A stretch of DNA of 59,043 nucleotides from a virus: IMG/VR virus record IMGVR_UViG_3300028800_000013, positions 1-59,043 of that record; one strand, written 5' to 3'. Position 1 is the stretch's first letter, and each line of letters begins with the position of its first letter. Under the pieces are notes generated by a model. That model was given only the letters and a program-made list of their open reading frames with translations. It was not told the DNA's origin and ran no database searches. A program made the translations under genes and the position numbers. This document shows positions 1 through 48,531 of the stretch, piece after piece.

Positions 1-127
1 CGCCGCGGCGTTCAAGACGCAGATCTGCGTGTTGAAACGCGATCCGAGCTCGCCGACAAGGGGCACGTCAGCGAACGTCTCATTGCGAGCGCGGCGACCG
101 TCCGCGACCACGGTGTCGACGAGCTCA
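1..127. repeat. Terminal direct repeat, left copy (circular overlap)
   Basis: This segment is identical to the last 127 bases of the window. An exact 127-base overlap is typical of a de Bruijn graph contig that closes on itself, so it is best read as an assembly overlap and not as a biological terminal repeat. The interrupted coding frame continues correctly across the join. Confidence 0.9.
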
Positions 128-1101
128 AGTACGCCCTGAAGAAAGGCGGCATCGCCGCCACGGCCGCTGAAAGCATCGCGCGGCTGCCGGAGGAGAGTCA
201 GCGCCAGGAAGTCGCGCGCATGCTGCCCAACGGCGCGCGCGCGATCATGGGCTCGCGGGTCGAGCCAAGCGACAGCCTCGACTACTTCCCGACGCCGCCC
301 TGGGCCACACGCGCGCTCGTCGAGCACGTCATTCAGCGCTCATGGAATCTGTCCTCGCTGCGCACGCAAAGCGCCTGGGAGCCGGCCTGCGGGGAGGGCC
401 ACATCGCCGAAGTGCTGACCGAATACTTCGGCGACGTCGTTGCAACCGACATTCACGGCTACGGCTATGGCGCCGTCTCCGATTTCCTGACCGATGCACC
501 TCCGTTCGGCTTCGAAGCCGACTGGATCATCACGAATCCGCCCTTCGCAGAGAAAGCCGAGCAGTTCGTCGTCAAGGCGATCGAGCGCGCCCGGATCGGC
601 GTCGCGATGTTTCTGCGGCTGCAATGGCTCGAGACGATCGGCCGCTACGAGAACATCTTCCAGCCATTCCCGCCCGCGGTCATCGCACAGTTCGCGGAGC
701 GCGTGCCGCTCTGCAAAGGCCGCTGGGATCCTACGGGTAGCACTGCGACGGCATACCTCTGGATCGTCTGGCTGAGAGCGCGCAAGGGCCCGACCGAGTT
801 CTTCTGGATTCCGCCTGGCTGCCGCGATGCACTTTCGCGGCCGGATGACGTCGAGCGCTTCACGGCGCACCCTGTCATCAAACGGCCGAAGCCGGTCGAT
901 GGGGCCGGAATTGCAATAGACCACGACCCTGTAACCGGCGAATGCCCCGACGACGGAAAACCAGAATCCGAACCTCCGATGACCGATGACGCGGGCCGGG
1001 AAAGCTCCGCTCTCGTGAATTCTAATGAGGAGGGGAAAGACGATTTGAGCATCCCGCCATTCTTGCGCCGGAAAGCTCCTGCGGAGCCCGCCCATGGCTG
1101 A
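1..1101 (+). CDS. ParB-like nuclease / DNA methyltransferase fusion (3' part)
   Basis: This is the C-terminal part of a protein whose start lies at 58569 on the other side of the circular join. The full product is 482 residues. The part here holds the SAM-dependent methyltransferase domain, with motif I EPACGEGHIAE at about residues 242-252 and the amino-methyltransferase motif NPPF at 295-298. The ParB-like domain is at the N terminus. N6-adenine methylation is the likely reaction, inferred from the NPPF motif. ParB domains joined to methyltransferases are known in phages and are thought to help DNA targeting. The stop overlaps the next gene by 8 bases. In linear form the first codon is base 1. 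Confidence 0.8.
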   Translation, partial: RRGVQDADLRVETRSELADKGHVSERLIASAATVRDHGVDELKYALKKGGIAATAAESIARLPEESQRQEVARMLPNGARAIMGSRVEPSDSLDYFPTPPWATRALVEHVIQRSWNLSSLRTQSAWEPACGEGHIAEVLTEYFGDVVATDIHGYGYGAVSDFLTDAPPFGFEADWIITNPPFAEKAEQFVVKAIERARIGVAMFLRLQWLETIGRYENIFQPFPPAVIAQFAERVPLCKGRWDPTGSTATAYLWIVWLRARKGPTEFFWIPPGCRDALSRPDDVERFTAHPVIKRPKPVDGAGIAIDHDPVTGECPDDGKPESEPPMTDDAGRESSALVNSNEEGKDDLSIPPFLRRKAPAEPAHG

Positions 1102-2245
1102 TAAATCGAACATCGAATGGACCGACGCGACGTGGAATCCGATTGTCGGTTGCTCCATCGTCTCGCCTGGCTGCACCAACTGCTACGCCATGAAGATGGC
1201 GGCGCGGATCGAGCGCATGCGGGCACCCGAACGCCGCGGCGACGTCATCCTTCCGCATCACTACACCGCACTGACCGAGCCTTCGAAAGGTGGCCCGGTC
1301 TGGACCGGCCGCGTCAACATCTCACCCGATCACATTCTGACGCAGCCGCTTCGCTGGAAGCGCGGTCGCAAGATCTTCGTCAACAGCATGGGCGATCTCT
1401 TCCACGAGTCGATCCCAGACGAATGGATCGATCGCGTGTTCGCCGTCATGGCGCTGTGCCCGCAGCACACGTTCCAGGTGCTGACGAAGCGAGCGGATAG
1501 GATGCGCGACTATCTTACGCAGTCGTGGGGAAACCCGACCGGTGGCGCCGATGGCTTGCCAACGCATTTGGCTCAGCGGCGCATCTGGGGCGAGATGCCT
1601 CGCCTGTCGGATGCTGCGCTTGGATGCAGGCCGCCGAAGTGGCCTCTCCCCAACGTCTGGCTCGGCGTCTCAACCGAACGGCAGAAGGAAGCCGACGAGC
1701 GGATTCCGTTGCTGCTACAGACGCCGGCTGCCGTTCGATTCATTTCGGCCGAGCCGTTGCTCGGGCCGATTGATCTCGCTCCCAAGGCCGACAGCACCTA
1801 TCAGCGATTGAGTGAGTGGTACGGCCCCAACGGCTTCGATCCGACCGGATCGCAGCCGCGTCGCGAGCGCATGGCAGGCTTTTTTCCGCGTATAGACTGG
1901 GTCATCGTCGGCGGCGAGAGCGGATCGAACGCACGTCTGATGCACCCGCAATGGGCGCGTACTCTTCGCGATCAATGCGCGGCCGCGGGCACGCGGTTCT
2001 TCTTCAAGCAGTGGGGTGAATTCGCGCCGACCGAAATCAGCGTCTCGGAATGGCTGCATCAACGTGATCCACGCCGTTTAGGCGAACGCATCGCGCAACC
2101 TGACGGCACGTTCGCAGGATTTCCCGCTGCAGGCGGTGCCCGCGCAGTCGCAATGCGACGTGTTGGTAAGGCGAACGCAGGCCGTCTTCTCGACGGTCGC
2201 GAGCATAACGAATTCCCTTCGGTCGCGCGGGCGAAAGCAGCATGA
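1094..2245 (+). CDS. DUF5131 (phage Gp37/Gp68 family) protein
   Basis: This 383-residue protein begins with the IEWTDATWNP segment typical of the Gp37/Gp68 family (DUF5131). Three cysteines, C20, C27 and C30, form a CX6CX2C cluster followed by YA. That cluster resembles a radical-SAM iron-sulfur site but lacks the classical CX3CX2C spacing. The family function is unproven. It lies between two DNA methyltransferase genes and overlaps both neighbours' frames by 4-8 bases, so a link to nucleic-acid modification is a reasonable inference and nothing more. The ATG at 1094 fits the conserved N terminus. Confidence 0.8.
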   Translation: MADKSNIEWTDATWNPIVGCSIVSPGCTNCYAMKMAARIERMRAPERRGDVILPHHYTALTEPSKGGPVWTGRVNISPDHILTQPLRWKRGRKIFVNSMGDLFHESIPDEWIDRVFAVMALCPQHTFQVLTKRADRMRDYLTQSWGNPTGGADGLPTHLAQRRIWGEMPRLSDAALGCRPPKWPLPNVWLGVSTERQKEADERIPLLLQTPAAVRFISAEPLLGPIDLAPKADSTYQRLSEWYGPNGFDPTGSQPRRERMAGFFPRIDWVIVGGESGSNARLMHPQWARTLRDQCAAAGTRFFFKQWGEFAPTEISVSEWLHQRDPRRLGERIAQPDGTFAGFPAAGGARAVAMRRVGKANAGRLLDGREHNEFPSVARAKAA

Positions 2246-2508
2246 CCGACACCATCCAAACCATCCCCCGCCATCACCGATGGGAGAACGAACGCCGCAT
2301 CCCGGCGTGTGAATCTCCTGACGGCTGCGAGCGCACGGAACGCGAATGCGTCAACGGCGGCTGTGGACTGATCAAGATCACCGTGCATCCGCCGCGGGGG
2401 CTTCCGTACCGCCGCTGGCGTCATCCCGTCACTGGAAATGAATTTGATCTCGGTGCAACGCCGCCCTGCCTAGCACTACATGAGATAGAGGAAGTCAAGT
2501 TCGCATGA
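2242..2508 (+). CDS. Hypothetical cysteine-containing protein
   Basis: An 88-residue protein of unknown function, coupled to its neighbours by ATGA overlaps at both ends. It has four cysteines in a compact block (residues about 23-41) that could bind a metal. It sits between the DUF5131 gene and a DNA methyltransferase, which is the only functional hint. Confidence 0.65.
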   Translation: MTDTIQTIPRHHRWENERRIPACESPDGCERTERECVNGGCGLIKITVHPPRGLPYRRWRHPVTGNEFDLGATPPCLALHEIEEVKFA

Positions 2509-3222
2509 CTGCCCAGACAATCGAACAACTGGCCGAAGGCGTGACGCTCTATCTGGGCGACTGCAGAGAGATTCTGCCTACGCTCGGCAAGGTCGATGCA
2601 ACAGTTGCGGACCCGCCTTATGGCATCGCGTTTGTGCATGGTGCGGGTGGCGATGGCATTGGGGGGGGGGCGCTACGTCTCAAAATTCAACGGTGTAGCG
2701 ATTTCTGGCGACGAAGAGCCATTCGACCCCAAGCCGTTCCTGGAAATTGCGCCAGTGACCGTCCTATTCGGTGCCAATCACTACGCGGACAAACTCCCAC
2801 CAGCGTCAAAATGGCTAGTCTGGGACAAGCGCAAGGGATTTACCCGCAACGATTTTGCGGACTGCGAACTCGCTTGGACGAACAAGGGCGGCGTTGCGCG
2901 GCTGATCAACCATTACTGGAACGGAATGATGCGCGATTCCGAAAGAGGAATTCCGCGCGTTCATCCGACGCAAAAGCCCATCGCGGTCATGGAATGGGTA
3001 CTTCGGGAAGTGACCGAGGATGGTCAAGTTATCCTCGATCCCTTCATGGGATCCGGCACAACCGGAGTCGCCGCCGTCAAGCTCGGCCGCAAGTTCATCG
3101 GCATCGAGATCGAGCCCAAGTACTTCGACATCGCCTGCCGCCGCATCTCCGATGCGCTGAAGCAGCCAGACATGTTCATCGAGCGCCCCGCGCCGGTAAA
3201 GCAGGAGGCGCTTGATCTATGA
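2505..3222 (+). CDS. Beta-class DNA methyltransferase, frameshifted at poly-G
   Basis: The frame opened at 2505 carries the catalytic motif DPPY (residues 36-39) and then leaves frame at a run of ten G at 2661-2670. The frame ending at 3222 continues the protein, with HPTQKP and the SAM-binding FMGSGTTG. The motif order (IV before I) marks a beta-class N4-cytosine or N6-adenine methyltransferase. Nine G would give one 238-residue protein; ten G give a truncated one with a nonsense tail to 3215. The run could be a phase-variation switch, an inactivating mutation or an assembly error. The domain assignment is firm, the expression state is not. Confidence 0.8.
2661..2670 (+). repeat. G10 homopolymer at the methyltransferase frameshift
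   Basis: Ten consecutive G residues lie exactly where the methyltransferase coding frame jumps by one base. Such tracts gain and lose bases by slippage during replication, and they are also hard to sequence. Confidence 0.9.
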
Positions 3223-3449
3223 CCGTCCCCGGCCTCAAAAATTGCGAAGACATCTTCCGCGAAGCTGAGCGGTATCATCCCGATCTGATGGAGCCATGGT
3301 CTGCGCGCGTTGCGGAGGCAGCGGACGCTCGCGAACGCCTGTCGATCATGCGCCAAGGTCTCGCGGCCACGTTCCGGCAGCGCTGGCCGATGTCGCCCGG
3401 GCATTCGTGGCTGGCGGATCAACGGCCGCGCGAAACGGTGCCTGCATGA
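3219..3449 (+). CDS. Hypothetical protein
   Basis: A 76-residue protein with no recognised domain. It begins inside the end of the methyltransferase gene (ATGA overlap) and its own stop overlaps the next start, so it belongs to the same translationally coupled early operon. Confidence 0.6.
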   Translation: MTVPGLKNCEDIFREAERYHPDLMEPWSARVAEAADARERLSIMRQGLAATFRQRWPMSPGHSWLADQRPRETVPA

Positions 3450-4003
3450 GCGCGCTCGGCCACCTCATCGATTCCGCGGTCGCAACCGCGATATCCGAAC
3501 ATCCCAAGTTGTTCGATCCGAAACAGGTCGAAAAGGCGCAGCGCATCCTTGTCCGCGAAATTATGAAATCGCTCGTGCGCGAACCGAACAAGGATGGCGA
3601 GGAAGCGGGAAAGGACGAAGCCACGCCAGCCACCACGCAATTCGTGCCAGCCGATGATCCGCGCGCCTTGGGCTATACCGCGCTGCGCTCGGTTGCCGGC
3701 GCGCTGGCGCCGCGTCGCATGGGCGATGGCTCTGTCTACGTCCCCGCGCAGGCGCAAGGCGAATGCGTCAAGGCCTTCGCCGTTATGTCCCCGCGGTCCG
3801 AATGGCCGTTCGTTTCCGACCGACGACAACTGATCGCCTGGCGCGAGTTCTTTTCCGAAATCCTTCCCGACGTGACCCGTCGCGACATTTCAGAAACAAA
3901 AAACGGCGTCGTTGGCGCACATCTGCCGTGGGTGTGGCCTCCGTCGAAAACCGGCCGCACCTACGATTCCGATGCTAAGCATGAAAGTGAGACTGCCGCG
4001 TGA
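3446..4003 (+). CDS. Hypothetical protein
   Basis: A 185-residue protein of unknown function. The frame is open further upstream to 3296, but the ATG at 3446 overlaps the previous stop as ATGA, the pattern used throughout this operon, so that start is preferred. The protein is mostly polar, with no membrane segment. It directly precedes the putative replication initiator and overlaps it by 4 bases. Confidence 0.65.
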   Translation: MSALGHLIDSAVATAISEHPKLFDPKQVEKAQRILVREIMKSLVREPNKDGEEAGKDEATPATTQFVPADDPRALGYTALRSVAGALAPRRMGDGSVYVPAQAQGECVKAFAVMSPRSEWPFVSDRRQLIAWREFFSEILPDVTRRDISETKNGVVGAHLPWVWPPSKTGRTYDSDAKHESETAA

Positions 4004-4971
4004 CCGACGACCGCCGCTATTCGATCATTCCGGCGCGGTCGGTCACAGACCCGCGTTTGGAGGGGCGCGACCTTCAGGTCGTGTGTTTCCTCGGGATGCA
4101 CACGAATAAGCTCGGATGGTGTTTCCTGAGCCAGGGCACGATCGCCGAAAAACTTCGCTGCAGCCGTTCGACCGTTCAGCGGTCTCTCGTGCGTTTGATC
4201 GATGCTGGATATGTGCAGACTCGCGACTTCACCGGTTCGCGTCCCCATGCGTGTCACGCATACCGCGTAATTTTGGACTTCGACGACCCCGATCTTAACC
4301 CGCCTGAGTACCATGTCGGCGGAAGCGAGGAAGACGGGGGGTGCCCGCCAGTGGGCACCTCGTCCGAGGTGCAGCACAGGCGGGCAGAGGTGCCCATCCA
4401 TGCACGGGCACCTGACCCGCCCGAGGTGCCCACACATACGTGGGCACATAACGACCAAGACTCTGGTGGTGGTAGTGGTGGTTACGCGCGCGCGCGCGAG
4501 GCGTGTTCGATCTCGGAAGAGGCACACGCTCTGGCGACCGAGATTGCCGTCATCGCCGGCCATGATCCGGAATTCCTACCGCCACGCTGGATGAGCGATG
4601 GCCCAGCCATGCGCGTGCAGATGATGCTCGATCGCGGATGGCAACCCACGATGATGCGGGACACGGCCAAGGCCATCATGGGCGCGAAGCGCGACGGACC
4701 GCCGGGCACGATCCGTTATTTCGAGAAGCCATTCGCCCGCGCGCACTCCGATCAATCGCAACCCGTTCCACTTCCGACTGTCGACCCGACAACTTCGGAC
4801 CATAGCAATGCTCGAAAAACTAAAAGTACCGATGGTTGGCAGCAGTCGCGAGATCGCTTCCGTGGAGCGCTCGGCCGGCTGCAGCGAGCCATCGATGTCG
4901 CCGAACCAGCTGGAAGCGGCGAAACAGGTGAACCGCCTCTTCTCCCTATTGCCGCCGCAGGACGTCGGTGA
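4000..4971 (+). CDS. Helix-turn-helix replication initiation-like protein
   Basis: This 323-residue protein starts with a winged-helix type domain; the HTH lies near residues 44-74 (SQGTIAEKLRCSRSTVQRSL). The layout resembles phage O-like or replisome-organiser proteins: an N-terminal DNA-binding domain, a variable linker and a C-terminal domain. The linker (about residues 110-165) is low complexity and is encoded by a cluster of GGTGCCC/GGGCACC repeats, like the lambda origin inside gene O. Its last 164 bases overlap the next gene in another frame. The HTH is clear. The replication role is inferred from architecture and from the next gene, which would fit a loader or helper. Confidence 0.6.
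   Translation: MTDDRRYSIIPARSVTDPRLEGRDLQVVCFLGMHTNKLGWCFLSQGTIAEKLRCSRSTVQRSLVRLIDAGYVQTRDFTGSRPHACHAYRVILDFDDPDLNPPEYHVGGSEEDGGCPPVGTSSEVQHRRAEVPIHARAPDPPEVPTHTWAHNDQDSGGGSGGYARAREACSISEEAHALATEIAVIAGHDPEFLPPRWMSDGPAMRVQMMLDRGWQPTMMRDTAKAIMGAKRDGPPGTIRYFEKPFARAHSDQSQPVPLPTVDPTTSDHSNARKTKSTDGWQQSRDRFRGALGRLQRAIDVAEPAGSGETGEPPLLPIAAAGRR
4340..4447. other. Candidate replication origin: iteron-like inverted repeats
   Basis: Seven copies of a GGTGCCC-type motif occur in alternating orientation: 4340 GGTGCCC, 4353 GGGCACCTC, 4366 GAGGTGC, 4387 GAGGTGCCCA, 4406 GGGCACCT, 4423 GAGGTGCCCA and 4441 TGGGCAC. They form about three dyads inside the HTH gene. A short alternating CG tract follows near 4485-4498. 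This organisation matches phage origins embedded in their initiator gene. Biased codon use in a repetitive linker is the alternative explanation. Confidence 0.45.
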
Positions 4972-5293
4972 TCCGGAAGCTTTCCTGAGTGCAGTGATCG
5001 CGCTGTTTTCCGAGCATGCGCCGCATGTCATGGACAAGGCGGTGATCGAGATCGCGAAGCGCAGCGACCGTCCGACCATCCGCACCGTCGCGCAAGTTCT
5101 CGACGATATCGATGATCGTGCGCGCGAGCGCGAACAGATTGCAAATCGCCTGCCGCCGCCTCGCGATCCGCCGCGCTCTCCGGAACAGCAGGCGCGCATC
5201 GATGCGCTCGTCGCCGACACCAGGCGGAAATTTGGAATTCCGCCCGAAGGCCTCGGGCGAAAGCGCACCGGCAATCTTCAAAAAACAGGGTGA
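4808..5293 (+). CDS. Hypothetical protein, possible replication partner
   Basis: A 161-residue protein that begins within the 3' end of the HTH gene. An internal ATG at 4895 would shorten the overlap to 77 bases and starts nearer the well-structured part (NQLEAAKQVNRLFSLLP). The protein is helical, with the segment RPTIRTVAQVLDDI and a charged C terminus. Position after an O-like initiator suggests a helper of replication, but no helicase-loader Walker motif is visible. Confidence 0.55.
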   Translation: MLEKLKVPMVGSSREIASVERSAGCSEPSMSPNQLEAAKQVNRLFSLLPPQDVGDPEAFLSAVIALFSEHAPHVMDKAVIEIAKRSDRPTIRTVAQVLDDIDDRAREREQIANRLPPPRDPPRSPEQQARIDALVADTRRKFGIPPEGLGRKRTGNLQKTG

Positions 5294-5299
5294 ACGCCA

Positions 5300-5989
5300 A
5301 TGCTCGCGAAAACGGGGGACACGATGCTGAAGGACGATGCCGAATTCAGGCGTGCGGCCGAGCTTGCGTTGTCGAAGGCCGCCGAGCGCGATGCGCGGCT
5401 GATCAAGCCGCAGAGCGAGGGCGATCCTACCTGGTACGTCGTTCGGGCTGTCGGCAAGTCGGACGATGCCGCGATCGATGGGCTTAATCGGCTGGACATC
5501 GAGACCTACTATCCGCAGGTCATGCAGATGCGGCCTGTGCAACGCAAACTGCTGTCGGCCGCACAGCGCCGCTCAGGCATCGTGATCAAGAAGCCGCAAC
5601 TCGGTCCGCTGTTTCCGCGCTACATCTTCGCCCGCTTCGGCATGGCACGCGCGAGTTGGCGCGACGTGTTCAAGATCGCCGGCGTCGGCGGCATGCTGTG
5701 CGAAGGCGATCTTCCGGTCCGGGTGACCGACGACCTGATCGGCGCGATCAGATCCCGTGAAAGCAACGGCGCTGTGCCCGGTTCGGTCACTCTGCGAGCC
5801 GTGTTCAAGGTCGGAGACAAGGTTACGGTCACGGATGGCGTCTTCGCCTCGTTCCCCGGTGTTGTGGAGAAAGGCATCGACTGCCCCATCGAGGACATTG
5901 ACCCGGACACCCGAATCAAAGTTGCTGTTCACATCTTCGGACGTGCCACTCCTGTCGAGCTGGAAGTGTGGCAAGTCTCCAAGCGCTAG
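5300..5989 (+). CDS. NusG-like transcription antitermination protein
   Basis: This 229-residue protein has the two NusG domains. An NGN-like region begins at WYVVRAVG (residues 45-52) and includes the hallmark LFPRYIFA (104-111). A C-terminal KOW motif is formed by FKVGDKVTVTDG (169-180) and the following FPGVV. NusG paralogues such as RfaH and LoaP bind RNA polymerase and suppress pausing or termination. It is the last gene of the early operon and stands directly before two intrinsic terminators and the late genes, so it may let polymerase read into the late operon. The regulatory target is inferred from position. Confidence 0.85.
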   Translation: MLAKTGDTMLKDDAEFRRAAELALSKAAERDARLIKPQSEGDPTWYVVRAVGKSDDAAIDGLNRLDIETYYPQVMQMRPVQRKLLSAAQRRSGIVIKKPQLGPLFPRYIFARFGMARASWRDVFKIAGVGGMLCEGDLPVRVTDDLIGAIRSRESNGAVPGSVTLRAVFKVGDKVTVTDGVFASFPGVVEKGIDCPIEDIDPDTRIKVAVHIFGRATPVELEVWQVSKR

Positions 5990-6058
5990 AACGCCAGCCA
6001 CCCTTACAGCCACCCCGCAGCCACCTGATGGTCACGTGGAGTGCAGCGCACGCTCTCA

Positions 6059-6083
6059 AGCCCGGCCATCGCGCCGGGCTTTG
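6059..6083 (+). terminator. Intrinsic terminator 1 after the NusG-like gene
   Basis: AGCCCGGC at 6059-6066 pairs with GCCGGGCT at 6073-6080 around a six-base loop, and TTTG follows. It sits 70 bases past the NusG-like stop codon, at the end of the early operon. Confidence 0.65.
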
Positions 6084-6149
6084 TCGTTCATAGGGTATGC
6101 GGTAGCGAGAGTTACCGCTGCCTTCCTTGGGCGTTTCCTCCCTAGACTT

Positions 6150-6186
6150 GGGCTGCTCGCCGTCAACCGGCCGAGCGGCCCTTTTT
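6150..6186 (+). terminator. Intrinsic terminator 2 before the late operon
   Basis: GGGCTGCTCG (6150-6159) pairs with CGAGCGGCCC (6172-6181) with one G-T wobble, followed directly by TTTTT (6182-6186). The HNH gene begins only three bases later, so late transcription must either start inside this region or pass through the terminator. Confidence 0.7.
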
Positions 6187-6188
6187 GT

Positions 6189-6527
6189 ATGGGCTTCAAG
6201 CTTCAGGCACGAGGGCAGAAGCTACGTCCTTCCACCCGCTCGCATGTGACGATCAGCCCGAAGAAGGCGGACCCGTTCTATCAGTCGCCGGAATGGAAGG
6301 CGCTGATGCGCGCCGTCATCAAGGCGCGCGGACGCCGGTGTGAGGATCCAAAGCATGATCCTGTTCGTCCTCGCGATGGCATCCGGCTCTTCGGCGACCA
6401 CATCAAAGAACTCAAGGACGGCGGCGCCCCGCTCGATCCCCATAACGTTCTGCTCCGCTGTGGCTCCTGCCACACTCGGAAGACGACGGCCGAACGAGCC
6501 AAGCGGCTCGGTCTCGTCCAGGGGTAG
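6189..6527 (+). CDS. HNH endonuclease, packaging-associated
   Basis: A 112-residue HNH nuclease. Zinc-type cysteines are C51 and CXXC at 91-94. The catalytic core is GDH (D70, H71) followed by N86 and H95. An HNH gene immediately before terS, terL and portal is the standard order in HK97-like cos phages, where the protein assists terminase in cutting DNA during packaging. The ATG at 6189 was chosen because the domain starts there; the upstream open frame covers the two terminators. No clear ribosome binding site is visible because the start adjoins the terminator T-run. Confidence 0.85.
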   Translation: MGFKLQARGQKLRPSTRSHVTISPKKADPFYQSPEWKALMRAVIKARGRRCEDPKHDPVRPRDGIRLFGDHIKELKDGGAPLDPHNVLLRCGSCHTRKTTAERAKRLGLVQG

Positions 6528-6644
6528 GGGGGGGTAAATCTTTGGGCCGCTTAGGGGCCCCGACCGCATGGGTGTCACGCGCGCAAAAAATTTTGGCCGG
6601 GCCATAGGTTTGATTAGCGCGTCAGAAATCAAAGAATTCAAACG
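6528..6644. other. Noncoding gap between HNH and terS, candidate cos region
   Basis: This 117-base gap starts with a G8 run (6527-6534), contains the perfect palindrome GGGGCCCC (6554-6561) and a short AT-rich stretch near 6585-6640. In HK97-like phages cos lies beside the HNH and terminase genes, so this is the likeliest place for the packaging site. No cos sequence can be proven by eye. Confidence 0.3.
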
Positions 6645-7286
6645 ATGGGTGCGAGTGAGCAGAAAACAGCGAAGGACGGCAGTCGAAGGGGCGGCGCGCG
6701 CAAGGGCGCTGGCCGCAAGCCCAAGCGTGCGTCTTCGCCGACGGCCATCAATGAGGTCGACCTTAAGGCGGCGATGACGGCGCCAGCGCCGGCCGAGATC
6801 GAGTCTGCTGTCGACGGGCAGTGGCGGCAGTCGCTGGAAGGCCTGAAGAACATCATGCTGCACGCCGGCAGTGACACGGCGCGCATTGCGGCGGCAAAGG
6901 AAGTCCTCGATCGCGGGTACGGCAAGCCTGCCGTCGAAATCGGCGGCGATGGCGCGCTACCGATGCTGCCGTTCATGGCCGCACCGAGCCTGGCGCCGTC
7001 GACAACGGCGACGATGCGCGCGGAAGCGCAGAAGTACGCGAACCTGGCCGTGCTCGTGCTGCGCAAGATCGCGGAGAACAGTTTGAGCGAGACGGCGCGC
7101 GTTGCCGCGCATCGTGCGCTGATCGAACGTGAGTGCGGCACGGTCGGCACGGCGAAGATGCCGGACGAACGCCGCGAGCAGCCGCTCGGCAAAAAGGAAC
7201 AGGCGCAGCGCGCGGCAGCTGCGGCGGCAACGGGCCGGTTCGCTACGCCGACGCCGCCGCGGCATAACCAGGAAGCCGTGCAGTGA
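6645..7286 (+). CDS. terS: Terminase small subunit
   Basis: A 213-residue protein with the basic N-terminal segment GGARKGAGRKPKR common in phage small terminase subunits, followed by a helical DNA-binding region. It would recognise the packaging site and hand DNA to TerL. The terL GTG start overlaps its stop. The identification rests on position and the N-terminal pattern more than on a diagnostic motif. Confidence 0.75.
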   Translation: MGASEQKTAKDGSRRGGARKGAGRKPKRASSPTAINEVDLKAAMTAPAPAEIESAVDGQWRQSLEGLKNIMLHAGSDTARIAAAKEVLDRGYGKPAVEIGGDGALPMLPFMAAPSLAPSTTATMRAEAQKYANLAVLVLRKIAENSLSETARVAAHRALIERECGTVGTAKMPDERREQPLGKKEQAQRAAAAAATGRFATPTPPRHNQEAVQ

Positions 7287-9118
7287 CGCACGATGCCTGG
7301 TGGACAACGGCGGTTCCTGACTGGGAAGAAAGGATCGTCGCAGGCAAGTCGCTGATCACGTTCCCGCCGCTGTTTCCGATCGAGGCGGAAGCGGCGCTCG
7401 AGGTGTTCAAGGGGCTCCGCGTCGTTGACGTTCCAGGCCGCCCGACAATGGGAGAGGCCTGCAAACCTTGGTCGATAGATTTCGCCGGCGCGATCTTCGG
7501 AGCTTACGATCCGGACTCCGGGGTCCGGCATATCAACGACTTCCACCTCGACATCGCGAAGAAGAACATCAAGTCGACGCTTGCCGCCGGCGTGATGTTG
7601 ACTGCGCTGATCAGGAACTGGCGGGAATCCGGCGAGTTCTACATCCTCGCGCCCACGAAGGAGATCGCGGACAATTCGTTCTTCCCCGCGCGCGATATGG
7701 TGGGGGCGGATGATGATCTGAAAGCGCTGTTGCTCGTCCAGCAGCATTCGCGACTGATCACACATCGGAATACGGGCGCGTTTCTTAAGGTCATCGCCGC
7801 AGATTCCGAAACCGTCGGCGGCAAGAAGACGATCGGGCTGCTGATCGATGAACTCTGGCTCTTCGGCAAGCGCGCGAATGCGGAGGCGATGATCCGCGAG
7901 GCCAAGGGTGGTCTCGCCTCGAGGCCGGAAGGCTTCGTTATTTCGCTGTCGACGAAACCGGATGGAACTCCGGCCGGCGTCTATGCGCAGCGGCTCGAAT
8001 ACTTCCGAGCGGTGCGCGACAGCAAGATCAAAGACCCTCGCTCGCTCGGTGTGATCTACGAATACCCGAAGCGCTTTATCGAAAGCGGCGATTACAAGAA
8101 GCGCGAGTTTTTCTATATCCCGAACCCGAATCTCGGCGTCTCGGTCAGCGAACAATACCTGGTCGACGAGCTCGCCAAGGCGGAATTCGCGGGCAAATCC
8201 GCAGTTGTTAACTTCTTCGCCAAACATCTCAACGTCGAGCCGACCGCGAGTTACCGATCGGACGGATGGGCCGGCGCAATCGTCTGGCCGCGGGGTGTCG
8301 AGATAGGTCTCACACTTGACGAGATCCTGAAGCGCAGCGAAGTCGTTTGCGTCGGCATCGACGGCGGCGGGCTTGACGATCTTCTCGGCGTTGCGGTCGT
8401 TGGCCGCGAGAAAGGCACGAGCCGCTGGCTCGGCTGGGCGCACGGGCTGATCTCCACGATCGGCGTGAAACGCCGTAAGGCGAACGCGGAGGACTATCTC
8501 CGTTTCAAGCGTGCCGGCGATCTGACCGTCTTCAAGTTCACCCACAACGGCGGCCCGGCTCTCGATGAGGAAGAGTACGATCCCGATCTCGCCGAGCTGA
8601 TCGATGATGCGATCACGTCTGACTACGTGCCGCCGTCCGATGACGAAGACAGTCCTGATCGTTCCGACTCGTTTGCGCCAAGCCTTCCGCCGGACATCCA
8701 GTACGTCGTCGATCTCGTGCAGCGTGTCCGTGATGCCGGGTTGCTCGCGCAGGTCGGCGTAGACGCGGCAGGGATTGGCGCCATTGTCGATGCGCTCGCC
8801 GGCATCGGCGTCACGCAGGATGCCGAAACGCTCGATGCCGTACGGCAAGGCATCGCGCTCATGGGTGCTATCAAGACGATCGAGCGAAAGCTCGCGGACG
8901 GATCGTTCCGTCATAGTGATCAAAGTCTGCTGAGTTGGTGCGTCGGAAACTTGAAGATCGTTCCGACGCCGACCGCGATGCGAGCCGGACGTGACGAAAC
9001 TGGCTTCGGCAAGGTCGATCCGCTGATGGCGCTGTTCAATGCGGCGCATTTGATGAGTTTGAATCCGGAAGCGCAGGATGTCTTCCCCGATGATTATGAA
9101 ATGCAAGTGTGGGCCTAG
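7283..9118 (+). CDS. terL: Terminase large subunit
   Basis: A 611-residue two-domain packaging motor starting at GTG. The ATPase domain has a variant Walker A (AKKNIKST, about residues 92-99) and a Walker B with catalytic glutamate (GLLIDE, 185-190). The nuclease domain has the acidic motif VGIDGGGLDD (around 357-366), part of an RNase H-like metal site. It translocates DNA into the prohead and cuts it at cos or headful ends. Length and order before the portal gene match HK97-group terminases. Confidence 0.95.
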   Translation: MTHDAWWTTAVPDWEERIVAGKSLITFPPLFPIEAEAALEVFKGLRVVDVPGRPTMGEACKPWSIDFAGAIFGAYDPDSGVRHINDFHLDIAKKNIKSTLAAGVMLTALIRNWRESGEFYILAPTKEIADNSFFPARDMVGADDDLKALLLVQQHSRLITHRNTGAFLKVIAADSETVGGKKTIGLLIDELWLFGKRANAEAMIREAKGGLASRPEGFVISLSTKPDGTPAGVYAQRLEYFRAVRDSKIKDPRSLGVIYEYPKRFIESGDYKKREFFYIPNPNLGVSVSEQYLVDELAKAEFAGKSAVVNFFAKHLNVEPTASYRSDGWAGAIVWPRGVEIGLTLDEILKRSEVVCVGIDGGGLDDLLGVAVVGREKGTSRWLGWAHGLISTIGVKRRKANAEDYLRFKRAGDLTVFKFTHNGGPALDEEEYDPDLAELIDDAITSDYVPPSDDEDSPDRSDSFAPSLPPDIQYVVDLVQRVRDAGLLAQVGVDAAGIGAIVDALAGIGVTQDAETLDAVRQGIALMGAIKTIERKLADGSFRHSDQSLLSWCVGNLKIVPTPTAMRAGRDETGFGKVDPLMALFNAAHLMSLNPEAQDVFPDDYEMQVWA

Positions 9119-9127
9119 GATACGGTG

Positions 9128-10534
9128 ATGGCTTGGCCGAAATGGCTGTCCTGGGGACCGTCTGCCCAGGATCGCTACATCGATGATTGGCTCAAAGGCA
9201 TCGAGCGCGGCCTCGCCTCGGCGACAGGCATTCGCGTGACAGTGCATGATGCGTTGACGTGCCCCGGCATCGCCGCGTGCGTCCAAGTCCAGTCGGAAGA
9301 CCTTGCGAAAGTCCCGCTTGATTTGAAAAAGCGGGCGGACGTCGGGTTCGAACCGGCGGCCGATCATGAAATCTTTCCGCTGTTGAAGTTCGGCCCGGCA
9401 CCGTGGCTGCCTTCCTATCGCTGGCGCAAGGCGCTGGTGCATACGGCGATGGCGCATGGCAACCATTATTCGCGTGTGTGGCGAGACGAAACGGGCCGCA
9501 TCGCCCGCATCACCCCGATTCAGACTGGCCGCTGCGGGGTTCGATGGGCTGCCGACGGCGAACCGTTCTTCGATATCACATCCCCGTTAGGCATCGAGCG
9601 TGGGTTGTCCTGGCAGGATGTCATCCACGTTGCCTATCGAGACTCTCATGACTGTGCGGACAACGGCGGCATCATTGGCGTCTCGCCGATCCTGCAGAAC
9701 AAGGAGACGGTCGCGCTGATGCTTGCGGCCGAGCGGTTCGCTGCAACGTTCTTCGCCAATGGCGCGCAACCTTCGATGATTTTGGAGTATGACAAAAAAC
9801 TCCCGAACGATGAAGTCGCGCAGCGCATCCGCGCCGGCATCGAGCGAGTCTATGGTGGCATCGATAACAAGTGGAAGGTCGCCATCCTCGAGCTCGGCAT
9901 GAAGATGCGCGAGACCTCGTTTGATCCGAGCAAGACGCAATTGACCGAGACGCGCAAGCTTGGTGCGGAGATGGCATGTACGATGTTCCGCACGCCGCCG
10001 CATAAGATTGGGCTGCTCGACCGTGCGACGAACAACAATATTGAGCATCAGGGCATCGATTACGTGACCGGGCCCCTGGCGGCGCTTGCGCGCAGTGTCG
10101 AGTCCGCGCTTGCGGTTGCCTGTCTCACTCCCGCCGAGCGCGCGCAATACAAGATCGAACACAATCTTGAAGGCTTGATGCGCGGCGACATTCTCTCGCG
10201 CTATCGCGCCTATGCGATCGGACGGCAGTGGGGATGGCTCTCGGTCAACAAGATTCTCGAACGCGAGAATGAGAATTCCATCGGGCCGGACGGTGACCAA
10301 TACCTCGTTCCGTTGAACATGGTTCCTGCGGGCGAAGATCCGATGAAGGATGATCCGCAGTCGCCGGGCCAGAACAACGCTGCCGATGCTTCGGACTGGA
10401 TGCCGAGCGACGTTCGTTATGCGCTGCCTGCGTTTGCGTCGTTCAACCCGAAGAAACTAAACGGTCGCAAGCCTCCGCGTCGTATCGCGTCATCTCTAGT
10501 CGGCGCCAAAGGCGAACCCCTCTACCTCAACTGA
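9128..10534 (+). CDS. Portal protein, HK97 family
   Basis: This 468-residue protein forms the dodecameric DNA entry ring at one capsid vertex. HK97-family features include a WYR-like N-terminal region, the segment TPPHKIGLLDRATNNNIEHQ and the C-terminal stretch GDILSRYRAYAIGRQWGWLS, typical of phage_portal proteins. AGGA at 9117-9120 is placed correctly for the ATG at 9128; a GTG at 9125 is a weaker alternative. It lies between TerL and the maturation protease. Confidence 0.95.
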   Translation: MAWPKWLSWGPSAQDRYIDDWLKGIERGLASATGIRVTVHDALTCPGIAACVQVQSEDLAKVPLDLKKRADVGFEPAADHEIFPLLKFGPAPWLPSYRWRKALVHTAMAHGNHYSRVWRDETGRIARITPIQTGRCGVRWAADGEPFFDITSPLGIERGLSWQDVIHVAYRDSHDCADNGGIIGVSPILQNKETVALMLAAERFAATFFANGAQPSMILEYDKKLPNDEVAQRIRAGIERVYGGIDNKWKVAILELGMKMRETSFDPSKTQLTETRKLGAEMACTMFRTPPHKIGLLDRATNNNIEHQGIDYVTGPLAALARSVESALAVACLTPAERAQYKIEHNLEGLMRGDILSRYRAYAIGRQWGWLSVNKILERENENSIGPDGDQYLVPLNMVPAGEDPMKDDPQSPGQNNAADASDWMPSDVRYALPAFASFNPKKLNGRKPPRRIASSLVGAKGEPLYLN

Positions 10535-10545
10535 GGATCAACATC

Positions 10546-11433
10546 ATGAGCCGCGTCTTCAATGCGCTCACGGCGGAGCCGTGGGCAATTATTCCTTCCG
10601 AATTGCAAAAGATTGCGGCCATCGTGCAGCGACACGACATGCCGGATGCGGCGCATGCGGTGCCGGAATATGTCAAGCGCGATTACGAGCTGATGGCGGG
10701 TCCCGGCGCGCAAAAGATTCCCGGTGCGCAGCGCGCATACGCCATCGACGGGGTCGCTGTGCTTCCGTTGGTCGGTCCTATCTTTCCGCGCGCCAACATG
10801 ATGACCGAGATGTCCGGCGCGACCTCGGTCACGATGCTGCAGAACGATTATCGCGCGGCGCTGCTCAATCCGGAGATTGGCGCAATCCTGTTGCTGATCG
10901 ATAGCCCTGGCGGTGCGGTCTCGGGCATCAATGCATTTGCGGATGCAGTCGCTTCGGGCAAGCAGAAAAAACCGACCGTATCCTATGTGTCCGGAACCGC
11001 CGCCTCGGCGGCATACTGGATTGCCAGCGCGACAGGGGAAATTGCAATTGATCGCACGGGTATTGTCGGATCGATCGGCGTCGTGGCCGCGCTGCCGGTG
11101 CAGGTCGCGCCTGACGCGAGCGGGGAATTGTGGGTCGAGATCGTGTCGTCGAATGCGCCGAACAAACGACCTGACCCGGTGAGCGAAGAGGGCCGTGCGG
11201 AAATCGTCGCAACCTTGGACGCCATTGAAAAGCAGTTCGTGGCGGACGTTGCCAAGGGCCGCAAAGTCTCGGTCGAAAAGGTGCTCTCCGATTTCGGTCA
11301 AGGCGGCGTCAAGGTCGGCGCCGATGGCGTGAAAGCCGGCATGGCCGACAAGGTGCAGAGCTATGATGCGACACTGAACAGCCTGCGCAAGATGGTCGCC
11401 AACCAGCGCAAGCTTGCGGCGCTGAAACAGTAA
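10546..11433 (+). CDS. S49-family prohead maturation protease
   Basis: A 295-residue SppA/ClpP-fold serine protease. IDSPGG (118-123) and TAASAAYW (151-158) are S49 hallmarks, with S154 the likely nucleophile; a lysine in the NKRPDP segment (about 206) is the likely general base. In phages of this type the protease cleaves scaffold or capsid proteins during head maturation. The helical C-terminal region may act as the scaffold, because no separate scaffold gene is seen before the capsid gene. Confidence 0.9.
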   Translation: MSRVFNALTAEPWAIIPSELQKIAAIVQRHDMPDAAHAVPEYVKRDYELMAGPGAQKIPGAQRAYAIDGVAVLPLVGPIFPRANMMTEMSGATSVTMLQNDYRAALLNPEIGAILLLIDSPGGAVSGINAFADAVASGKQKKPTVSYVSGTAASAAYWIASATGEIAIDRTGIVGSIGVVAALPVQVAPDASGELWVEIVSSNAPNKRPDPVSEEGRAEIVATLDAIEKQFVADVAKGRKVSVEKVLSDFGQGGVKVGADGVKAGMADKVQSYDATLNSLRKMVANQRKLAALKQ

Positions 11434-11535
11434 CTCTTTCAAATCTTGTATTGCGTACCAAACGGGATCCCGGCGAAGGCCGCGGATAAGGCGGGTGCTC
11501 ACGCGCCCACAATCTCGCAACACAGGAGATTTATC

Positions 11536-12882
11536 ATGCGAGACATCGTGAGCCTTCGGCAGGATCGCGCGAAGGCGTATGAGAAAATGGAAGCGGCTCT
11601 CGCTTCCGAGGCGGAGAACCGTCAGGAGCAGTTTGACGCTGCAGCGGCGGAAGTCGAAGCACTCGACAAGGATATCGCCAATGCCGAGCGCATGCAGAAG
11701 CTCAAGAGCGACAAGGCGACCGGTACTGCGCAATCCGAGACCGGCGATATGGACCCGGCGCGCGTGCAGGGCTTCATGGCGAAGTACCGCAATTTGCCGG
11801 CGCATACGCATGTCGTGCCGAAAGGCGGCGTGCTGAGCCCCGCCCAGTCGGCGGCGTTCGGTGATCTGCTGTTCGCCGTGCGGCGCGCTGCGCTCAACCG
11901 CGGTGTCGATGACCGCCTGGTCGGTGTCGAGGCCTCGAGTGGTTCGAACGAAGCCGTTCCGTCCGATGGCGGCTTCCTTGTCGAGAAGGATATCGCCGAT
12001 GGCCTGCTGCAGCGCACGTTCCAAGTCGCGCGCATTGCCGACCGCGCCCGCCGCATTCCGATCTCGGCCCGTTCGAACGGCCTGAAGATCAACGCGCTGA
12101 AGGACGACTCGCGTGCGACCGGCTCGCGCTGGGGCGGCGTGCAGGGCTACTGGATCGGAGAGGGTGACTCGCTCACGCCGACGCGTCCGAAATTCCGGCA
12201 GATGAACTTGGAATTGAAGAAGCTCGCGGGGCTTCTCTACGCCACGAGTGAGATGCTGCAGGACTCGACTGCACTTTCTGCGGTCATCAGCGAAGCGTTC
12301 CCGAACGAATTCGCCTTCCTGCTCGACGACGCGATGTTCGAAGGGCCGGGTGGTGCCACGCCGCTGGGCTTCATGAACGCCGGCTGCAAGGTGACTGTCG
12401 CGAAGGAAACCGGGCAGGGCGCTGGCACCATCGTGAAGGAGAACATCGACAAAATGTGGGCGCGTTGCCCGGGCGGCATGATGGGCGACGCGGAATGGTG
12501 GATCAACCAGGACTGCTTCCCGCAGCTCAACGGTCTGACGCAGGTGATCGGCACCGGCGGCGTGCCGGTCTATCTGCCGCCCGGCGGGCTGTCGCAGTCT
12601 CCCTACGGCACGCTCATGGGCCGTCCGGTTCGCCCGATCGAGTATTGCTCGACGGTCGGTACCGAGGGCGACATCGTTCTGGCTGTTCCGAGCCAGTACA
12701 CGATCATCGAGAAAGGCGACATCCAGTACGCCACCTCGATTCACGTCGCGTTCCTCACGGATGAGCAGGCGTTCCGGTTCATCTACCGCGTGGACGGCCA
12801 GCCGGTCGACGACAAGCCGATCACGCCGTTCAAGGGCACGAACAAGCAGTCGCCGTTCGTGACGCTGGCGACGCGCTCGTAA
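11536..12882 (+). CDS. Major capsid protein, HK97 fold
   Basis: A 448-residue HK97-type capsid subunit. Residues 1-75 form a charged coiled coil (delta domain), which is probably removed or acts as scaffold. The body includes SDGGFLVEKDIADGLL, typical of phage capsid family N-arms, and the P-domain and A-domain regions that follow. The ATG at 11536 has AGGAG 7 bases upstream; the frame is open back to 11446 but that part is the intergenic leader. A hairpin follows the gene. Confidence 0.95.
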   Translation: MRDIVSLRQDRAKAYEKMEAALASEAENRQEQFDAAAAEVEALDKDIANAERMQKLKSDKATGTAQSETGDMDPARVQGFMAKYRNLPAHTHVVPKGGVLSPAQSAAFGDLLFAVRRAALNRGVDDRLVGVEASSGSNEAVPSDGGFLVEKDIADGLLQRTFQVARIADRARRIPISARSNGLKINALKDDSRATGSRWGGVQGYWIGEGDSLTPTRPKFRQMNLELKKLAGLLYATSEMLQDSTALSAVISEAFPNEFAFLLDDAMFEGPGGATPLGFMNAGCKVTVAKETGQGAGTIVKENIDKMWARCPGGMMGDAEWWINQDCFPQLNGLTQVIGTGGVPVYLPPGGLSQSPYGTLMGRPVRPIEYCSTVGTEGDIVLAVPSQYTIIEKGDIQYATSIHVAFLTDEQAFRFIYRVDGQPVDDKPITPFKGTNKQSPFVTLATRS

Positions 12883-46508: not shown

Positions 46509-46654
46509 GCCATCCCCGCCTTCACGATCAACCCGACATTCGCAATGACATATCCGCCGACGATCAGAACATCGGCGTGCTTTCCCTCATACATCCATAG
46601 TGCGCCTTGGCAGGCGTAGAGGAAGGTGACGATGTAGAGAGGGGTGAGGGTCAT
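46505..46654 (-). CDS. 49-residue membrane peptide
   Basis: A short ORF joined by ATGA overlaps to both the Dcm-type methyltransferase gene and the next gene. It has two hydrophobic stretches (LYIVTFLYACQGALW and VLIVGGYVIANVGLIV). The double overlap supports genuine translation. Confidence 0.6.
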   Translation of the reverse strand: MTLTPLYIVTFLYACQGALWMYEGKHADVLIVGGYVIANVGLIVKAGMA

Positions 46655-48531
46655 GCGGCCTCGCCTATTTCAATTTGATCGACGTAGCCGATGCGCTGGC
46701 CCAACCAGCGCATCACGTTGACGGCCATGCTATTCCCGAGCGCCTTGTAACGCGGGCCATCGGCAGCTAAGCGGCTCAAATCTGCATCAGAGCAGCCTGT
46801 AAACGTTTCTGGATCAACGCCAAATAATTGAGCCAACTGTTCATGCGACAGCGACCGCAAATGCGTTAGTTCGTCGGCCTCCAGTCGCCGTCGCATCTTG
46901 GTCCGTATGAGGGTGTAATTGTCCTTGAAGCCTTGCAAGCGTTCGCATTCGACGGGGATGAGACGACGTACCGCCCATTGCTGAGCGATGTAGCTTTTTG
47001 ACGATCCGCCGCTTGCGGCGCGGATGTTCGCCGTCTCGTGCGGCCCTTCGAATTGCGAACCGCCTTCGCGTCCGCGCATGTCGAAGGCGACGGCTAATTG
47101 TCCGCCCGCATTGGCGTGGCTTTCGGTAAAGCCCATCGCTCGCAATGTCGGTGCGACATCGTTCGCCGCGTCTGCACCATGATCCTTGCAAGAGAACGCG
47201 ATCGTCGGTGCGGAGCCGCTGGCGCGGTCGGCGTTGCTTCCGAGCGTCCCTGAATGATCGCCGCTTAGATCGAGATTTGAGCCGCGCGTCTGGAAGGCAA
47301 TGGCCGGCGGATGTGCTGCCGATGCGAGTGGATGACAGGGCTCTCCTGCCTTCGGAACACTGCGGTTCGTCTGTGACGTGATCTGGGTCGTGTCGAACGC
47401 AATCGCTTGGCTGAACGCATCTGTGTCGAGCGGCCCCGCCTTGTCCCCATAGATGATCGTGTCGCTCTGGCGGGCATCGAAAGCAATCGGCACAGTCGGC
47501 ACGCCCCGCCCGGTACCATCTTCGCTCGCGTCGAAACCCTCCGCGCGCAAAGCGTGCGCGGTCGCGATCAAGGTCTCGGTCTCGGTCTCGTAGTCCTGAC
47601 GACCCATGCCGCCTGCGTTGAGGCAGTGCGAGACATCGCCGGTCGACGAGAATAAGCCAACGTAGCTCTCGGCATCCGCACGATGTGAACTGTTTGACTT
47701 GGCGAGAAGCGGTTGTGCTACATCGTGCGACGCAATCAACCCGGCGGCGCAGTCGAAATCCGTTCCGAGTCCGCCACCGCCTTGAGTGCGCGCGTTAATT
47801 GTCGGGGCAACTCTTTTCCCCGCTTCTCGGCGCGGCGCAGGATTCCCCGACAGGCCTTCGCGCTCAAAAAGTACCGCTGCGGCACGTCGCCAGTCTCCAA
47901 GATATCCGACAACGAACACACGCCGTCGTCGCTGGGGAACCGCTCGGGCAAAGCCGTCCACTCGGACATACTGAGCGTCAAGCACTCGCCATGCGAGGCC
48001 GTATGCGCTTTCGATGCCAAGGACAATTCCCGCAGTTTGCCAGCCTGATGCGGGGATTTCAATTCGTCGTCCAGAGAGCAGTCCCAGAAGGCTCGCAAAG
48101 TCTCGTCCTCCGTTGCTCGAAAGGACGCCGGGGACGTTCTCCCAGACCAGCCATCGGGGCCGGTACTTGCGAGCAAGAGCAGCATAGACGAGCGTGAGCG
48201 AGCCACGCATTCCATCCATGCCCGCGCGGAGTCCGGCGATGGAGAAGTCCTGACATGGTGTTCCTCCGACGAGAAGATCGATAGCTGCATCCGGCCATTC
48301 CTCGAATTTCGTCATATCGCCGAAGTTGGGAACGCCGTTACGAGACCATGCTTCGCCGGGGAGATTGCTCCCGTAGTGGTGAGCTAAAACTGCGGACGGA
48401 AAATCCGGTCCGTATTTGTAATTGTGATCCGGATCGAATTGCGAAAACGCGAACGGCTGCCAGCCGAGCGGATGCCAGGCGCATGTCGCCGCTTCTATCC
48501 CTGAACAGACGGAGAGGTAGCGCAGGTTCAT
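46651..48531 (-). CDS. C5-cytosine DNA methyltransferase (Dcm type)
   Basis: A 626-residue enzyme with the ordered m5C motifs: SVCSGIEAA (7-15), GGTPCQDFS (89-97, catalytic C93), ENVPG (131-135) and QRRRRVFVVG (200-209). The C-terminal motif KALGNSMAV follows after a long variable region (about 235-510) of repeated AIAF/VAF-type units, possibly the target recognition region with expansions. It would methylate cytosine-C5 to protect phage DNA from restriction. It is expressed with the lysogeny genes, so it probably works in the prophage as well. Confidence 0.95.
   Translation of the reverse strand: MNLRYLSVCSGIEAATCAWHPLGWQPFAFSQFDPDHNYKYGPDFPSAVLAHHYGSNLPGEAWSRNGVPNFGDMTKFEEWPDAAIDLLVGGTPCQDFSIAGLRAGMDGMRGSLTLVYAALARKYRPRWLVWENVPGVLSSNGGRDFASLLGLLSGRRIEIPASGWQTAGIVLGIESAYGLAWRVLDAQYVRVDGFARAVPQRRRRVFVVGYLGDWRRAAAVLFEREGLSGNPAPRREAGKRVAPTINARTQGGGGLGTDFDCAAGLIASHDVAQPLLAKSNSSHRADAESYVGLFSSTGDVSHCLNAGGMGRQDYETETETLIATAHALRAEGFDASEDGTGRGVPTVPIAFDARQSDTIIYGDKAGPLDTDAFSQAIAFDTTQITSQTNRSVPKAGEPCHPLASAAHPPAIAFQTRGSNLDLSGDHSGTLGSNADRASGSAPTIAFSCKDHGADAANDVAPTLRAMGFTESHANAGGQLAVAFDMRGREGGSQFEGPHETANIRAASGGSSKSYIAQQWAVRRLIPVECERLQGFKDNYTLIRTKMRRRLEADELTHLRSLSHEQLAQLFGVDPETFTGCSDADLSRLAADGPRYKALGNSMAVNVMRWLGQRIGYVDQIEIGEAA

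Follow-up and report, generated by a model that had tools for sequence, protein, structure and literature searches.

The window examined here is a stretch of 59,043 nucleotides from a virus record in IMG/VR (IMGVR_UViG_3300028800_000013, positions 1 to 59,043). A dense run of plus-strand genes, which contains a replication-initiator-like gene, is closed by a gene for a NusG paralogue. Two terminators, T1 and T2, follow, and on the 3' side of T2 lie the genes for an HNH endonuclease, small terminase, large terminase, portal, protease, and major head protein (Table 1). DNA methyltransferase genes and a DUF5131 gene are found around the early genes (window positions 220-1101, 1094-2245, and 46651-48531).

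Table 1. Features at the junction of early and packaging genes in the window, with the NusG paralogues of two cultured phages
Feature	Position	Strand	Remarks
NusG paralogue ORF	5300..5989	+	229 aa; NGN ~5429-5749, KOW ~5798-5983
T1 intrinsic terminator	6060..6088	+	stem 6060-6079, tail TTTGTCGTT
Conserved leader element	6089..6102	+	CATAGGGTATGCGG; family consensus YATAGGKTGTGCGG
P1 hairpin	6099..6118	+	GCGGTAGC-GAGA-GTTACCGC; overlaps leader element
RF00519 (suhB/mmgR) sRNA-type RNA, including T2	6113..6196	+	57.6 bits, cut-off 41
P2 small hairpin	6120..6132	+	GCCU-UCCUU-GGGC; RF00519 consensus
CU-rich anti-Shine-Dalgarno-like linker	6133..6149	+	GUUUCCUCCCUAGACUU
T2 terminator of RF00519 RNA	6150..6188	+	stem 6150-6181, tail TTTTTGT 6182-6188
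HNH endonuclease, first late gene	6189..6527	+	Pfam and PHROG searches
HNH-TerS intergenic stretch, probable cos site	6510..6600	+	conserved; inference
Small terminase subunit (TerS)	6645..7286	+	weak match
Large terminase subunit (TerL)	7283..9118	+	
NusG paralogue, cultured Bradyrhizobium phage (L163)	4008-4685		OP596613, WAX24340; "ABC transporter substrate-binding protein"
NusG paralogue, cultured Bradyrhizobium phage (L164)	4252-4911		OP596612, WAX24288; "hypothetical protein"

The last early gene had been described in a preliminary description as encoding an NGN-KOW protein, and searches of Pfam, PHROG, NCBIfam, and the PDB agree with the predicted fold on this point. The open reading frame matches the Pfam NusG family with E=3.7e-11 (PF02357 NGN, 43.8 bits against a cut-off of 22.2), PHROG 6386, "transcription antiterminator," with E=1e-18, and NusG chains in the PDB with E=9e-15, the last in an alignment that spans the KOW domain, where the NusG motif IFGRATPVEL is retained. 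An AF2 model built with 32 phage relatives has a mean pLDDT of 86.5, and its top fold matches in the PDB are NusG and RfaH. The protein scores below the curated cut-offs for housekeeping NusG (TIGR00922; 74.1 versus 135.7 bits), RfaH (TIGR01955; 61.2 versus 144.5 bits), LoaP (NF033641 of NCBIfam; 22.7 versus 125 bits), and UpxY, and for this reason we regard it as a separate paralogue. Membership in the NusG family also bears out the earlier statement that the factor differs from Q or N proteins.

Two terminators had likewise been proposed between nusG and the HNH-terminase genes, and a hairpin-plus-T site is found at each place. T1 has a fold energy of about -15 to -16 kcal/mol and an interrupted U-tract; T2 folds with -24.4 kcal/mol, and the ATG of the HNH gene at 6189 comes directly after its tail. 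Folding of the RNA between nusG and HNH is stronger than in 200 of 200 shuffles (z=-3.2). A generic terminator scan listed neither site, because the T-tract of T1 is poor and the loop of T2 is long for the rules of the scan. Both recur in dozens of divergent phages and are therefore more than chance.

T2 is the 3' end of a small RNA of the RF00519 (suhB/mmgR) type, the sole above-threshold Rfam match within the whole window; all 13 further loci with the same arrangement that were scored also exceed the RF00519 gathering score. RF00519 was described as an alphaproteobacterial small noncoding RNA, every copy having a putative promoter and a terminator and none having specific neighbors (Corbino 2005, PMC1273637). 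In Sinorhizobium meliloti, the sRNA MmgR depends on Hfq, acts in trans, and carries an anti-Shine-Dalgarno motif (PMC7143759). The RNA described here resembles this family in sequence and structure; unlike the known copies, it has no visible promoter, its neighbors are fixed, and its 5' part is longer, with P1 and a TAGG-containing element. RF00519-like cores are also seen on many alphaproteobacterial plasmids (Bradyrhizobium, Methylobacterium, Microvirga).

Two other readings of the conserved sequences were tried and set aside. A leader peptide was rejected, given that loop lengths in the alignment differ by non-multiples of three. The conserved motif on the 5' side of T2 was rejected as a cos site, since it is RF00519 itself; the better candidate lies between HNH and TerS, where a stretch GGGGGTNNNATC...ACCGCATGGG...CACGCG, common to phages with and without NusG, is the probable cos (window 6510-6600; L004 8230-8310; L006 8220-8300; L008 8530-8610).

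For comparison, IMG/VR was scanned with a 15-mer from the RNA core, TTGGGCGTTTCCTCC, and most of the matches listed contain an extended RF00519 core. With a second pattern, which includes the upstream element, 38 loci were found in viruses and 12 in bacterial genomes; most of the bacterial ones are in Bradyrhizobium, and others are in Rhodopseudomonas, Tardiphaga, and Mesorhizobium. Once duplicates were removed, 131 loci were studied. Protein-only searches of viral and genome contigs with the window NusG returned no relatives; these were reached via the terminase. An iterated profile search placed a same-strand NusG-like ORF upstream of the RNA in 51 of the 131 loci, with 81 to 921 bp (median 190) from the end of the ORF to the RNA core, and the Pfam NusG cut-off was passed by 9 of 10 divergent module proteins. 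The order of the module is nusG, T1, about 10 nt, YATAGGKTGTGCGG, P1, P2, UUUCCUCCCUAGACUU, T2, and late genes. Many viruses of Bradyrhizobium-type bacteria carry, in front of the packaging genes, a nusG gene and two terminators that enclose an sRNA-type RNA.

The element upstream of the RNA is closely linked to NusG. Among the 15-mer matches listed, NusG is upstream in 21 of 22 loci with TAGG in place and in 2 of 64 without it (p=9e-17), a test unbiased as to the element, since the 15-mer search used the RNA core alone. Over all loci, TAGG is in place in 42 of 44 NusG-positive loci and in 5 of 67 NusG-negative ones (p=1.7e-22). Both tests count related phages as independent, so that the p-values are indicative only, although clustering at 40% identity splits the NusG proteins into 14 groups. 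NusG is also upstream in 20 of the 25 element-pattern loci with enough upstream DNA; of the other five, three come from a single Bradyrhizobium erythrophlei genome and have no T1, and the remaining two have shortened cores.

The same module stands before different packaging genes. Among loci with enough DNA, 20 of 29 NusG-positive ones have a TerL of the window family no more than 5 kb downstream, compared to none of 33 NusG-negative RF00519 loci. Four NusG-positive loci without it have other terminases in that place (PHROG 15 in three, PHROG 979/2 in one). Across dozens of phages, the module thus stands ahead of packaging genes from three or more terminase families, which ties it to the point where these genes begin rather than to a single phage lineage.

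Spacing within the module is tight at both ends. The T-tract of T1 (TTT) lies 7 to 14 nt on the 5' side of TAGG in 42 of 45 loci, and the T2 stem ends a median of 13 nt before the HNH start (n=31 loci). Unless T2 itself contains a promoter, transcription of HNH must therefore run through T2. The unit of hairpin, T-tract, about 10 nt, and YATAGG is doubled in 12 module loci, among them L163 (4900-5040), L004 (7637-7915), L117, L161, L093, L073, L148, and L157; the last copy of the unit in L004 is directly 5' of the HNH start codon.

The leader element has one convincing copy in the window and one per genome; a search for more copies elsewhere in the module genomes gave none that convinced. It is nearly invariant, with NusG proteins diverging down to about 20% identity, and so the host polymerase rather than NusG may read it. 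The pairing of P1, which overlaps it, covaries across phages (18 double-change cells compared to 4.7 in shuffles), whereas a predicted TAGG-CCTA helix closing P1 and P2 showed no covariation. The P1 covariation favours RNA as the form that would be recognized. The leader of the window also contains GCGGTAGCG, which matches the core of the E. coli ops element, as do 19 of the 51 module loci. This is a lead toward possible recognition of non-template DNA; the ops-like letters vary among module loci with compensating changes in a 3' arm, and may therefore be part of an RNA stem.

Consistent with the earlier remark that no good promoter is visible between nusG and HNH, no sigma70-like promoter was found in positions 1-12000 of the window, nor between nusG and TerS, with an E. 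coli-type matrix, which may miss alphaproteobacterial, phage, or other noncanonical promoters. The matrix scored the region from nusG to the RNA core no better than its shuffles, and slightly below them (mean z -0.18). A score of at least 8 beside the RNA was seen in none of 56 module loci, compared to 15 of 70 other RF00519 loci. Between HNH and TerS, too, the sigma70 score is little above that of shuffles (mean z 0.39). TAGGKT was rejected as a sigma70 -10 box, the -35 position being unconserved and the covarying pair too close. A sigma54 site was also rejected; GG-N10-GC fits some loci by eye, at positions that are not conserved.

Taken together, these observations make us lean, narrowly, toward an early-to-late switch built on the phage NusG paralogue, in the position that Q holds in lambda. 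Transcripts, presumably from an early promoter, would traverse the replication genes and nusG and then reach T1. Polymerases that pass T1 would copy the leader (TAGGKTGTGCGG, P1, P2). Their default would be to terminate at T2 and so set free an mmgR-type sRNA, some 90 nt long, that could accumulate. Once enough NusG paralogue is present, it would join the elongation complex, probably via the leader, recruited either by an RNA hairpin, as LoaP is, or by non-template DNA, as RfaH is. It would then suppress T2, and possibly T1, and in this way let transcription proceed into HNH, terminase, and later genes. T1 lies 5' of the element, and a factor loaded at the element therefore cannot act on T1 in that round.

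The preliminary description had already read the locus as a late switch by NusG-dependent read-through. The order of NusG, terminators, and packaging genes with three terminase families, the T2-HNH distance of about 13 nt, and the cis element fit that part of it. Its picture of plain tandem terminators needs to be replaced, as T2 ends an RF00519 RNA and T1 is coupled to the leader at a fixed spacing; furthermore, in the related clade of L006, these terminators are absent and NusG is fused to the HNH operon. This arrangement, its counterpart in L116, and the wide occurrence of the RF00519 core without NusG speak against the switch.

We think it unlikely that the phage merely carries the RF00519 RNA as an sRNA gene whose promoter escaped detection (for example, the TAGG element or a site that depends on an activator), with the late genes under their own promoter and NusG serving another purpose. 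RF00519 RNAs are normally stand-alone genes, and TAGGKT has T1, A2, and T6 in common with a -10 box. Three B. erythrophlei copies, moreover, lack NusG and T1 yet retain the element, core, and T2; the top promoter scores belong to two of these copies (TTGAGC-17-TTAGAT). These points are set against the unconserved -35 position, the lack of any module locus among the 56 with a score of 8 or more, and the covariation of P1 pair 14-38, since a start directed by TAGGKT as a -10 box would fall at or beyond that pair. The 13 nt between T2 and HNH leave no room for a late promoter of HNH, the HNH-TerS gap is poor in promoter signal (mean z 0.39), and the linkage to NusG is near total among the 15-mer matches listed. 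The three chromosomal copies belong to B. erythrophlei GAS478 (L154, L156, L160), where TAGGGTGTGCG, P1, the RF00519 core, and T2 are kept and T1 and NusG are absent; the promoter-like sequence is that of L156 and L160. They may have begun as phage modules and become independent sRNA genes.

Variation in the NusG proteins bears on another reading, in which the paralogue acts on phage transcripts generally, for processivity or against Rho, and is not tied to the leader, T2 is merely leaky, and the co-location reflects operon order. The IFGRATPVEL motif kept in the window KOW domain would suit such a role, as would the L006 clade, which joins NusG directly to HNH without terminators. In L006 itself (7181-7855), NusG overlaps HNH with no T1, element, or T2 between; in L116, NusG adjoins HNH, also without these, and an RF00519 core lies 7.5 kb upstream. 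The two represent a second NusG clade next to HNH. Several module NusGs, however, have no recognizable KOW domain and end in lysine/arginine-rich tails (L057, 2940-3446; L123; L011; L152), and binding of Rho or S10 via KOW is therefore not the function that module NusGs have in common. The leader element and T1/T2 are found with NusG and hardly without it, and T2 is no weaker than other RF00519 terminators: its strength in module loci equals theirs, and a weaker T2 was rejected because the T-tract is no different. We consider this reading, too, an unlikely one. The NusG of L129 also has no recognizable KOW, and its C-terminal part differs.

That the paralogue instead strengthens termination at T1 and T2, holding off the late genes and favoring the sRNA, much as B. 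subtilis NusG acts at certain intrinsic terminators, is very improbable: NusG can act as an intrinsic termination factor (PMC8060035), and the T-tract of T1 has a fixed spacing, yet nusG sits in the early run before the late genes, a position in which one would expect an activator, and the specialized NusG paralogues named in the literature are mostly antiterminators.

The switch by antitermination is directly testable, since the module is present in the complete genomes of ppBeUSDA76-1 and ppBdUSDA122-1, which come from cultured phage-producing symbionts. Their hosts, B. elkanii USDA 76 and B. diazoefficiens USDA 122, are soybean symbionts with spontaneous phage production in culture (PMC10127595). 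The nusG of ppBeUSDA76-1 is annotated as an "ABC transporter substrate-binding protein" (Pfam NusG 25.7 bits, cut-off 22.2), and that of ppBdUSDA122-1 as a "hypothetical protein" (21.7 bits, just under the same cut-off). The annotated genes of ppBeUSDA76-1 from 5.5 to 42 kb are all on one strand, with the nusG-HNH gap amid them. The module also has natural variants, namely KOW-less proteins, doubled terminators, and chromosomal copies without NusG. The KOW-less proteins suggest that the NGN domain should suffice, and if the switch operates as proposed they would show that NGN alone does. The module offers NusG paralogues a possible phage niche and places a large group of RF00519 RNAs in a constant genomic setting.

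What is known of late switching in tailed phages concerns mainly Q-type antiterminators, sigma factors, and phage polymerases. A review of NusG paralogues and a paper on the evolution of RfaH describe no phage NusG late switch and mention rfaH-like prophage genes in passing; a NusG-based early-to-late switch looks to be undescribed so far. The window protein is like RfaH in the fold of its model. The ops-like GCGGTAGCG of the leader could be a further likeness, but its letters vary, covary with a 3' arm, and may belong to an RNA stem. The nearest parallel worked out so far is Bacillus LoaP with the dfn and mln leaders, where a NusG paralogue is encoded beside its target operon and a leader with a small hairpin is followed by an intrinsic terminator. 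The targets differ, being phage late genes here and antibiotic operons for LoaP; the leader here is an RF00519 RNA behind a further terminator, and its hairpin is not of the UNCG type described for LoaP. For LoaP, read-through of an intrinsic terminator depends on the small hairpin in the leader RNA (PMC12691694).

Like lambda Q, the candidate antiterminator is the product of the last early gene and a terminated leader precedes the late genes; unlike lambda Q, it belongs to a different protein family and no pR'-like promoter was found. The StxS sRNA arises from the pR' leader. It is a phage-encoded sRNA acting in trans, and a phage sRNA can regulate the host (PMC12197685). The LoaP parallel, the position of lambda Q, and StxS together lead us to propose that polymerases stopping at T2 produce an sRNA, and that read-through is enabled by the NusG paralogue. 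The fuller version, a device widespread among phages in which the same leader gives rise to an mmgR-type sRNA or to the late operon and the paralogue decides by reading TAGGKTGTGCGG/P1, is put forward only tentatively. If it holds, the T2-terminated sRNA would be able to bind host ribosome-binding sites, and the module would do with an NGN protein what lambda does with Q; its terminated product, as with StxS, would be a leader RNA able to act as an sRNA and thus itself a regulator.
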